22,096 nucleotides of DNA, from positions 1 to 22,096 of IMG/VR virus record IMGVR_UViG_3300025300_000110; one strand, 5' to 3'. Position numbers and translations under genes: made by a program. This stretch comes from a virus. This document shows, piece by piece, positions 2,105-18,037 of this stretch (positions are counted from its first letter, which is position 1; each line of letters opens with the position of its first letter). The notes below the pieces were generated by a model that did not search any database, was not told where the DNA came from, and saw only the letters and a program-made list of their open reading frames with translations.

Positions 2105-3780
2105 GCATACGCGACATCCTGCGGCGGTTTGAATTACGGAGGGCCTCGAAACCGGCGGCCGCTGGATCGGCCGACCCCGTATGGGTGCCACCCCTGGCGG
2201 GCGTGCACGTGGACGAGCAGACGGCGCTGCAATACAGCGCCGTATTTGCCTGCGTGCGAATCATCAGCGAAACGGTGGCCAGCCTTCCCTGGCGTCTCAT
2301 GCGCCGCCGCGACGATGGCGGGGCCGACGTGGATGACCGGTCGAACCTGCACTGGCTCATGTTCCAGGGCCCGAACAAGGAAACCAGCGCCTGGGATTTC
2401 AAGCGAACCCTGGAGGCTCACCGGCAGATTTACGGCAACGGGTACGCGGAAATTGTGCGAGACGGTGCGGGGCGGCCCCAGTCGTTGTGGATCGTGACGC
2501 CCGACCGCGTGACCCCGACACGTGACCGCGACGGCAGCGTGGCCTACCTGGTCGAGAACGGAACCACCGAACCGACGCGGCTACGCGGTCAGGACATGTT
2601 CCATTTGCGTGGCCTGGGGTTCGACGGCCTGGTGGGATATTCGCCGATCGCGCTGGCACGCCAGGCGATTGGCCTGGGCATCGCCACCGAGCAATTCGGC
2701 GCCGCCTGGTTCGGCAACGGTTCGCACGGTTCGGCGGTGCTGGAATCACCCACCCCGCTGGCACCCGACCGCTCGGCCGCCCTGGCCCAACAGTTCGAGC
2801 GCCGCAACCGAGGCCCGAAAAACGCTAGCCGTGTGCTCGTGCTCGAAGGCGGCCTGCAATACAAGCCGATCAGCGTGCCGCCCGACGACGCCCAGTTCCT
2901 ACAGACCCGCAAGTTCCAGGTCAGCGAAATCGCCAGGTGGTATAGAGTCCCACCGCACAAATTGGCCGACTTGGACCGCGCGACGTTCTCCAACATCGAG
3001 CACCAGGCCATCGAGTTCGTGACCGACGCCATTGTGCCGTGCGTCAATGGGTGGGAATCCGAGGCGCAGCGAAAGCTGATCGGCACGCCAGCCCGCAGAA
3101 CCCTGTTCACGAGGATGTCGGTGCAGGCGCTGCTGCGTGGCGACCAGGGGGCCCGTGCAGACTATTACGAGAAGCTATGGCGCATGGGTGTGCTGTCTGC
3201 CAACGAAATCAGACGGTTTGAGGATCTCAACCCGATCGACGACGGTGACCAGCACCTGGTGCAGATGAACCTCACGAACCTGGACGACGTGGGCGACGAA
3301 CCCGAACTGGAACCAGAGCCGGTGATCGAGCTACCCGACGACGACAGCGACGTGCGGGCCTATTCGGTCTATCTACTAGAGCCATTGTCGGAGTCACTGG
3401 GCCGTTGCGTGCGGAAGGAATCGCGCGCAATGGCCCAGGCAGCTGAGCGGGGCAAATTGGACGCGAAGCGAATAGCGTTCTACGAAACCTTCGACGATGA
3501 AGTGGCCGACGCGGTCGAACCCTGCGTGCGTGCCCTGGCGCGTTGTGTACGCGGCGACGCGTTCGGTGCGGCCGACGACGCCCTGGTGGCGACCATCGCC
3601 CGCGATTACGGCGCCGAGCACGTTGCCGAGAGCCTGGCCGACCTGGAGGCGGCCGCCGCCGCCGGTGACGTTGGCGGCCTGGCTGATCTATGGTCGATTG
3701 AGCGGGCACCACGCCACGCGGCCGCCATCATGGACAAGGCGACGAAAATGCTAGGAACCCAAAATGAAATCAGAACATGA
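2098..3780 (+). CDS. Portal protein, HK97 family
   Basis: The portal is the dodecameric ring at the head vertex through which DNA enters and leaves. The 560-aa product has the family opening (AALQYSAVFACVRIISETVASLPW around residues 40-65, typically S-x-V-x-A-C-v-x-i-i-a), then a DVFHLRGL-like segment (QDMFHLRGLGFDGLVGYSPI) and FLQTRKFQVSEIARWYRVPPHKL near 265-290, all hallmarks of phage_portal proteins. The C terminus past about residue 400 is unusually long and acidic (PELEPEPVIELPDDDSD), followed by an alpha-helical Ala/Asp-rich tail, longer than the roughly 400-430 aa common in this family. Start ATG 2098 overlaps the terL stop; the end overlaps the protease gene by 17 bp. Confidence 0.94.
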   Translation: MVSIRDILRRFELRRASKPAAAGSADPVWVPPLAGVHVDEQTALQYSAVFACVRIISETVASLPWRLMRRRDDGGADVDDRSNLHWLMFQGPNKETSAWDFKRTLEAHRQIYGNGYAEIVRDGAGRPQSLWIVTPDRVTPTRDRDGSVAYLVENGTTEPTRLRGQDMFHLRGLGFDGLVGYSPIALARQAIGLGIATEQFGAAWFGNGSHGSAVLESPTPLAPDRSAALAQQFERRNRGPKNASRVLVLEGGLQYKPISVPPDDAQFLQTRKFQVSEIARWYRVPPHKLADLDRATFSNIEHQAIEFVTDAIVPCVNGWESEAQRKLIGTPARRTLFTRMSVQALLRGDQGARADYYEKLWRMGVLSANEIRRFEDLNPIDDGDQHLVQMNLTNLDDVGDEPELEPEPVIELPDDDSDVRAYSVYLLEPLSESLGRCVRKESRAMAQAAERGKLDAKRIAFYETFDDEVADAVEPCVRALARCVRGDAFGAADDALVATIARDYGAEHVAESLADLEAAAAAGDVGGLADLWSIERAPRHAAAIMDKATKMLGTQNEIRT

Positions 3781-16790: not shown

Positions 16791-16834
16791 CGATCGGCGC
16801 TGCGTTGATTGTGCATCACGGGCAACATCAAGCC

Positions 16835-18037
16835 ATGGCGAAACAGCAGGGAAACAGGGCCGCGTCTTGTCAACCCCAACAAAAGCGGCTATCAGTTGGG
16901 AGCCTGTTCGCGGGGATCGGGGGCCTGGAACTGGGCCTGGAGCGCTGCGGCATGGGCGTGCGGTGGCAAGTGGAAATCGACCCGTGGTGCCGCAAGGTAT
17001 TGGCGAAACATTGGCCCGACGTGGAGCGACACGATGACATCAAAACATGGCCCAAACCCGACACCGAGCGCGTTGACGTCATCTGCGGGGGATTCCCCTG
17101 CCAGGACATCAGCACGGCAGGCAAGGGCGCAGGCCTGGCCGGTGCCCGATCTGGCCTGTTCTACGAGGCCATGCGGGTCGTTCGCGACCTGGAACCCCGA
17201 TACATCCTCCTGGAGAACGTCTCAGCGCTGCTTGTTCGGGGGATGGATTCCGTACTCGGAGAGCTGGCCCAGGTCGGGATGGATGCGGTCTGGCATTGCG
17301 TCACGGCTGCCAGTGTTGGTGCCCCTCACCGCCGCGACCGCGTGTTCATCATCGGATACAGGCCCGGCGATGTGGCCGACACCGAGGGCCACCGAGTACA
17401 AGAATCCGGGGATGTCGATAGCGAAACGGGAAAAGGGAATGCCCCCAGAGAATCTGACGGAAGCAGTGAAAATGTGGCCGACACCGAGAGCGTGCTCAAT
17501 AATGGCAAACCAGAAAATAACGCCGGAATTGGGGCAACGGGGCAACAGAAATCTAGAGGAAGAGGTCGCCAGACAAATGTGGCCGACACCAGGGGGCAAG
17601 GTGCACCCGAATGTGATCGACCCCGACGATCTGGTGAATCGACTGGGGGAACCCCTGAAACAAGGGGAAAAACCCCACGACCGTCGAACGGGGCGCCCTG
17701 TGCAGACATGTCTACCGGATGCGGTCAAGCTCTGGCCGACCCCGACAGCGTCGGCCCACAAGGGCAGCGGGCAAACAGGCACGATGCGCGACCGACTCGA
17801 TTATGCAGCGGAACGGCCCGAGGGGGAGCGCATTTCTGGGCAGCTGAACCCGCAGTGGGTCGAGTGGCTCATGGGATTCCCCGCCGGGTGGACCGACTTA
17901 GAGGGCTAGGAAACGCCGTGGTGCCCCAGGTGGCTCAGTTCGTAGGCGAAATGCTTCTGGATATTCACCGGGGACAAATCCCGGCGCCTGGAGTGTCGGT
18001 TTACCCCCTTCGCGAAACCGACATCAAACCGACATGA
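16835..18037 (+). CDS. DNA cytosine-C5 methyltransferase (Dcm-like)
   Basis: The product adds a methyl group to C5 of cytosine in a specific DNA sequence, often protecting phage DNA from host restriction. The 400-aa product shows motif I LFAGIGGLELG (24-34), motif IV CGGFPCQD with catalytic C89, motif VI ENVSAL (E127), motif VIII APHRRDRVFIIG, and motif X GLGNAVVPQ with N360. Between about residues 170 and 330 lies a low-complexity target-recognition stretch with repeated VADT. ATG 16835 is chosen because the upstream TTG (16805) adds nothing family-like. The same DNA is also open and family-like in the +1 frame (see 17370-17909). Ends 45 bp past the motif X region plus a short tail. Confidence 0.92.
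   Translation: MAKQQGNRAASCQPQQKRLSVGSLFAGIGGLELGLERCGMGVRWQVEIDPWCRKVLAKHWPDVERHDDIKTWPKPDTERVDVICGGFPCQDISTAGKGAGLAGARSGLFYEAMRVVRDLEPRYILLENVSALLVRGMDSVLGELAQVGMDAVWHCVTAASVGAPHRRDRVFIIGYRPGDVADTEGHRVQESGDVDSETGKGNAPRESDGSSENVADTESVLNNGKPENNAGIGATGQQKSRGRGRQTNVADTRGQGAPECDRPRRSGESTGGTPETRGKTPRPSNGAPCADMSTGCGQALADPDSVGPQGQRANRHDARPTRLCSGTARGGAHFWAAEPAVGRVAHGIPRRVDRLRGLGNAVVPQVAQFVGEMLLDIHRGQIPAPGVSVYPLRETDIKPT
17370..17909 (+). CDS. Overlapping frame: methyltransferase-type WPTP/LNPxWVEWLMGFP C-terminal domain
   Basis: In the +1 frame relative to the methyltransferase, from ATG 17370, the DNA encodes a 179-aa sequence with four WPTP motifs (MWPTPRAT, MWPTPRAC, MWPTPGGK, LWPTPTAS) and the ending SGQLNPQWVEWLMGFPAGWT. 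This pattern is typical of the C terminus of one class of phage cytosine methyltransferases (recollection of the family, not a search). It would require internal initiation or a +1 shift near 17358-17370. It lacks motif X, which lies only in the other frame downstream of this stop. It may be a real second product, an alternative C terminus, or a relic of an older frame. Confidence 0.55.
   Translation: MWPTPRATEYKNPGMSIAKREKGMPPENLTEAVKMWPTPRACSIMANQKITPELGQRGNRNLEEEVARQMWPTPGGKVHPNVIDPDDLVNRLGEPLKQGEKPHDRRTGRPVQTCLPDAVKLWPTPTASAHKGSGQTGTMRDRLDYAAERPEGERISGQLNPQWVEWLMGFPAGWTDLEG
17373..17743 (+). repeat. Four copies of TGGCCGACMCC in both-frame coding region
   Basis: TGGCCGACACC occurs at 17373, 17475 and 17580, and TGGCCGACCCC at 17733. 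Gaps are 102, 105 and 153 bp, all multiples of three, so the repeats keep phase in both frames, reading VADT (LADP in the last copy) in one and WPTP in the other. Confidence 0.8.

Follow-up and report, generated by a model that had tools for sequence, protein, structure and literature searches.

We confirm that the same phage DNA encodes two proteins in different reading frames: the main part of a C5-cytosine DNA methyltransferase (alpha) and a nested second protein (beta) that carries a piece absent from the first. In our reading, to which we assign a probability of roughly 0.83, the locus specifies a two-subunit C5-cytosine DNA methyltransferase encoded in overlapping frames, with beta initiated from an internal Shine-Dalgarno (SD) sequence and ATG at position 17034 and the two chains assembled as in M.EcoHK31I. 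True dual coding had been raised as a possibility in a first-pass annotation of this DNA. It is supported here by constraint in both frames, by an open second frame in relatives and by independent protein families that match this frame.

Two overlapping open frames in a phage methyltransferase locus

The window, i.e. the whole stretch of DNA that was analysed, is a viral record of 22,096 bases. It encodes terminase, portal, head and tape-measure proteins as well as an integrase, whose gene is followed by that of the methyltransferase. The features of the window described below lie on the plus strand. Reading of the open reading frames (ORFs) in the window shows frame A to be open over 16805..18037 (410 aa) and frame B, in +1 of frame A, over 16809..17909 (366 aa). 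Alpha is read in frame A, which is open from a TTG at 16805, and its likely start is the ATG at 16835 (16835..18037). It is a C5-cytosine methyltransferase by its matches to Pfam PF00145 (E = 6.6e-45), TIGR00675 (1.1e-35) and phrog_363 (8.5e-73). Motifs I-VIII and X, and with them the catalytic domain of the PF00145 class, are present in alpha. Motif IV, GGFPCQDI, contains the catalytic Cys (17087..17110); beta is coded here too, and the motif served as anchor for the survey of start codons. Motif VIII, GAPHRRDRVFIIG, overlaps beta as well (17318..17356) and is placed by sequence and by alignment to a one-chain homologue (L279), whose motif X end likewise aligns to alpha motif X, GLGNAVVPQ (17903..17929). 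Nothing resembling motif IX was seen in alpha, although motif X is present. Motifs IX and X therefore do not follow each other in one chain in the window: X is in alpha and IX is only in frame B.

Beta (17034..17909, 291 aa) is a +1-frame protein delimited by its match to PHROG 1008, by purifying selection on frame B and by a start codon with SD. Frame B has four [ML]WPTP repeats, reading MWPTP at 17370..17384, 17472..17486 and 17577..17591 and LWPTP at 17730..17744, and ends in LNPQWVEWLMGFPAGWTDLEG. Frame A reads VADTEG, VADTES, VADTRG and LADPDS, with VADT lying across the first repeat of beta, and ends in RVAHGIPRRVDRLRGLGNAVVPQ. Beta motif IX, LNPQWVEWLMGFPAGW, occupies 17844..17891, bases that alpha reads as RVAHGIPRRV, and the beta stop codon TAG (17907-17909) falls within alpha motif X. 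The strings and coordinates quoted for both frames in the first-pass annotation were recovered from the sequence, and the length over which both frames are open, also remarked upon there, is not due to chance by the codon-permutation null given below.

Spread and annotation of the nested frame

Frame B was matched in 89 phage records by translated search, all below 60% identity, and in 6/6 annotated records inspected it is the +1 frame inside the annotated methyltransferase gene. To remove selection on frame B, loci were refetched by the alpha N-terminal domain only (blind loci). Beta was found in +1 inside alpha in 106/120 blind viral loci (29/40 and 77/80, the latter set consisting mostly of relatives of one query). 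Among loci fetched by frame B itself, the same arrangement occurs in 74/80 viral loci and in 72/80 bacterial loci from many phyla. Overall, the overlapping alpha/beta arrangement was found in hundreds of phages and bacteria.

Annotation of such loci mostly keeps alpha alone; Paenibacillus phage Shelly annotates beta, as 'g55 internal gene'. PHROG 1008 matches frame B itself, with E = 8.2e-74 for the Shelly internal gene and 5.9e-27 for the window (residues from 17208). Together with PHROG 27243, 26627 and 31772, it represents the independent families matching frame B that the first-pass annotation had expected under dual coding. PHROG 1008 and 31772 carry the name 'DNA methyltransferase'; both match the nested beta frame and not the catalytic protein, so that PHROG 1008 is named methyltransferase yet is the nested partner. 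Gene callers apparently settle on one frame or the other.

The search in E. coli returned prophage copies. A frame-B profile match is present in 4/4 regions viewed, with alpha alone annotated; no restriction system was seen in these four regions, and none was identified as EcoHK31I. A plasmid search for an EcoHK31I-like system yielded six distant matches only. No significant match was obtained in a PDB sequence search with beta profiles, and beta has no Pfam match.

Purifying selection acts on both frames

Disjoint pairs of loci were compared, and each substitution was classified by its effect in both frames. Because the alignments were built on the A protein, they are biased against frame B. 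Among blind loci, with loci without beta excluded, pairs treated as independent and values uncorrected for saturation, dNN/dNS for frame B is 1.01 (0.90-1.12) upstream of beta, 0.66 in the overlap between motifs IV and VIII and 0.56 (95% 0.47-0.65) in the WPTP region; the corresponding dNS/dSN values are 0.26, 0.53 and 1.28. Upstream of beta, frame B thus looks neutral, and substitutions that alter A while being silent in B are rare. Within the overlap, synonymous sites of beta change faster than those of alpha, the opposite order to that of the non-overlapping part. By position, the frame-B constraint starts 75 to 0 nt before motif IV, and it is extreme at motif IX (dNN/dNS 0.35, dNS/dSN 1.90). 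Beta is under purifying selection. An earlier run on loci fetched by frame B agrees with the selection result of the blind set. Alpha is weakly constrained over the WPTP stretch (dNN/dSN 0.81-0.84), both frames are constrained over the motif IX/X stretch, and alpha motif X is kept across blind loci. Constraint, which according to the first-pass annotation might have been confined to one frame, is therefore present in both.

As a null model, the synonymous codons of A were permuted, leaving the A protein and its codon usage unchanged. After permutation, the +1 frame had no stop between motifs IV and IX in 2.4% of trials. Over the same interval it is open in 81/88 real blind loci against 2.1 expected, a count that is to be read with the unconditional 106/120 since the 88 loci were pre-classed as beta-positive; an open +2 frame occurs in 0/88. 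Frame B is thus intact in relatives, as the first-pass annotation would have it. When scored with the beta profile against 20 permutations per locus, the real +1 frame exceeds all 20 of its own permutations in 88/88 loci, with a median of 179 bits for real and 51.6 bits for permuted frames. The 51.6 bits on permuted frames indicate that A accounts for part of the similarity in B, and similarity by itself would therefore not have been proof.

A probable start of the nested protein shortly before motif IV

A frame-B ATG with AGGAG or GGAG 7 nt ahead of it occurs upstream of motif IV in many distant loci. By a fixed rule, a start with SD is present in 63/102 blind loci against 5.7 expected (11x), some 40% being without one by these criteria, and the commonest form among blind loci is ATG with GGAG at 7 nt. 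The window has this form: an SD-like GGAG (17023..17026) stands 7 nt before an ATG (17034..17036) that lies within alpha just 5' of motif IV, where the frame-B constraint sets in (between IV-75 and IV). Beta most likely begins at this ATG 17034 behind GGAG, giving 291 residues. The first-pass annotation had suggested alternative C termini, produced by an internal start at 17370 or a +1 shift near 17358-17370. This does not hold, as frame-B selection and the conserved SD and start begin just 5' of motif IV (17034). With conserved B sequence and a start with SD lying further upstream, a start at 17370 is rejected and a C-terminal frameshift is disfavoured.

Motif IX and natural variants of the enzyme

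The end of beta, LNPQWVEWLMGFPAGWT, is motif IX and aligns to ordinary C5 methyltransferase motif IX (LTPxECERLxGFPD). The alignment of beta to canonical motif IX is gap-free over 20-25 columns, with a pairwise E of about 2e-6 (hhalign). In L279, from a Pelosinus metagenome-assembled genome and the sole single-frame homologue found, motifs I-VIII, the WPTP region, motif IX and motif X all stand in one frame. Its residues 6-196 and 379-418 match alpha of the window, and residues 198-354 match beta (34%, E = 6e-18). A split form is seen in six other loci (L207, L221, L240, L266, L277 and L280), where many stops interrupt frame A beyond motif VIII, and WPTP, IX and X are encoded in frame B only. 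L279 and the six split loci together indicate that beta supplies the middle part that alpha lacks. The suggestion in the first-pass annotation that one protein family arose from the other by a frameshift is partly borne out as history by L279 and by the forms in which beta carries everything; it leaves unexplained that both frames are still selected today.

In AlphaFold, beta alone is modelled poorly (mean pLDDT 58.6). For L279, the catalytic domain is well modelled and the C-terminal half is unresolved; the model matches M.HhaI over about 169 columns only (Foldseek).

A proposed two-subunit enzyme and known systems

In the proposed enzyme, alpha would supply the catalytic domain (motifs I-VIII) and motif X, bind the cofactor and hold the catalytic cysteine. 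Beta would initiate internally at the SD and ATG near motif IV (17034) and would contribute the interval between motifs VIII and IX of the one-chain homologue, including the W-P-T-P repeats, as well as motif IX. By their position, these repeats presumably serve target recognition. Alpha and beta would then assemble into one active heterodimer, with beta closing the enzyme through motif IX. The analysis establishes two conserved and selected frames, a conserved internal start, motif IX in beta and one-frame and split relatives; we infer that beta is translated, associates with alpha and determines specificity.

Methyltransferases of two polypeptides are already known, M.EaeI being named beside M.EcoHK31I as such a system. 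M.AquI is a two-subunit C5 methyltransferase split between motifs VIII and IX, with motif X in the small subunit. It resembles the class of the six split loci, in which alpha has I-VIII and beta has WPTP, IX and X. It differs from the window in that its small chain has both IX and X, whereas beta of the window ends before X, which lies in alpha. Lee, Kam and Shaw reportedly found in 1995 that the small gene of M.EcoHK31I lies inside the large gene in another frame; such nesting is shared by the window (beta 17034-17909, +1 of alpha). In M.EcoHK31I, motifs I-VIII and X belong to the large polypeptide and motif IX to the small one (PMC3404938), and the window, likened to it by description, shares this split. 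The two differ in origin, as M.EcoHK31I comes from enterobacterial restriction-modification systems whereas the gene of the window is in a phage in which no restriction gene was recognised. Moreover, the predicted recognition domain of M.EcoHK31I is placed in the large subunit (PMC3404938), whereas its positional equivalent in the window is in beta. Literature searches on overlapping methyltransferase genes found no report of the present case; what appears to be unreported in the literature searched is the spread of the arrangement, the constraint on it, its one-frame and split relatives and its annotation as alpha only.

A second protein in another frame of a phage methylase gene, with the host frame kept open, is also produced by the ShiLan-type out-of-frame HNH element (PMC11855218). 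That element is a homing insertion, whereas beta belongs to the enzyme gene proper. One locus (L101) has, after the beta stop and inside the alpha ORF, a +1-frame ORF with an HNH endonuclease-like Cys/His pattern, alpha being open throughout; judged by these patterns, L101 appears to carry both beta and a ShiLan-type HNH-like element.

If the two-subunit reading is true, many annotated phage cytosine methyltransferases are half-enzymes. It would imply that the annotated enzymes are incomplete and that alpha cloned without a functional beta would be inactive. Claims of long nested genes on the same strand often meet doubt in prokaryotes; this one combines selection on both frames with a conserved internal start and a clear enzymatic reason, and the dual-coded case is seen across viruses and many bacterial phyla. 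The related one-frame, nested and split forms allow a direct test of how a dual-coded enzyme evolved.

Alternative explanations

A programmed +1 frameshift beyond motif VIII might instead carry ribosomes out of alpha into frame B, yielding a fused product of I-VIII, WPTP and IX. This order is viable in the one-frame homologue, and in the six split loci alpha stops just after VIII and beta continues in +1. We nevertheless consider such a shift unlikely, since frame B is not used only downstream of a shift site: its constraint begins just before motif IV, far upstream, where a shift near 17358-17370 would impose no selection, and it has a start codon with SD there at 11 times expectation. The shift product of the window would, moreover, be without motif X. 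It is also decidedly unlikely that beta is a real protein but no enzyme subunit, i.e. an independent nested gene for, e.g., a regulator or counter-defence factor. The lack of a Pfam match for beta would fit such a gene, as would a second nested +1 family inside complete methyltransferases (see below), which means that nested ORFs of this gene class need not be subunits. However, motif IX is absent from alpha and present in beta, L279 has beta sequence between motifs VIII and X of one chain, and motif X is solely in beta in the six split loci.

A frameshift fossil, with one frame ancestral and the other decaying, would agree with the weak constraint on alpha over the WPTP stretch and with its loss there in some loci. 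Against it, motif IX/X shows constraint in both frames, blind loci retain alpha motif X and decay would not leave beta open in 81/88 of them; the data lean towards both frames being intact over long branches. We regard a fossil as very improbable. Finally, frame B might be untranslated and its conservation a shadow of frame A or a DNA- or RNA-level constraint. The similarity that permuted-codon versions keep shows that some of it does come from A. The substitutions favour frame-B synonymous sites, which would follow neither from a shadow of A nor from constraint at the nucleotide level; B is kept while A is broken in the six split loci, and no permutation matched its real +1 frame in any locus scored. 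This explanation is strongly disfavoured and scarcely credible.

A second nested family and other layouts

Complete one-chain phage methyltransferases have another +1 ORF after motif VIII, LETGxIPxRFFLSxKACAGILRRAEKRGKKLP (131 phage records). It is present in 67/77 loci fetched by the methyltransferase N-terminus (L297, L298, L299, L301-L460) and has a dNS/dSN of 1.75 in its own stretch versus 0.23 and 0.30 in the flanks. Pfam gave no match to this second ORF, and PHROG a weak one only. We lean towards the view that nested +1 partners are old and general in phage C5 methyltransferases, not peculiar to one restriction system, and comprise at least two families, the WPTP/motif-IX beta and the LETGxIPxRFF-type protein in complete one-chain enzymes.

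Several loci depart from these layouts. In L121, L122 and L106, the alpha N-terminus and the frame-B part are in one frame and motif X is in another, which may reflect a deletion, a pseudogene or an assembly error. In an Escherichia phage and E. coli prophages (L003, L461-L464), YYNEIDPFAAQWLRNLI, which is motif II/III-like, stands before motif I, an order resembling a permutation of the N-terminal motifs; beta lies in +1 and alpha alone is annotated. One viral contig (L020) carries a tandem pair of alpha/beta pairs. Five beta matches of equal score and identity (L281-L285) lie at different places in one Roseovarius chromosome assembly. On an Embleya plasmid (L300), RefSeq has alpha together with a +1-overlapping 'hypothetical protein' that has motif IX and the motif X end (1963-2772 and 2738-3181).
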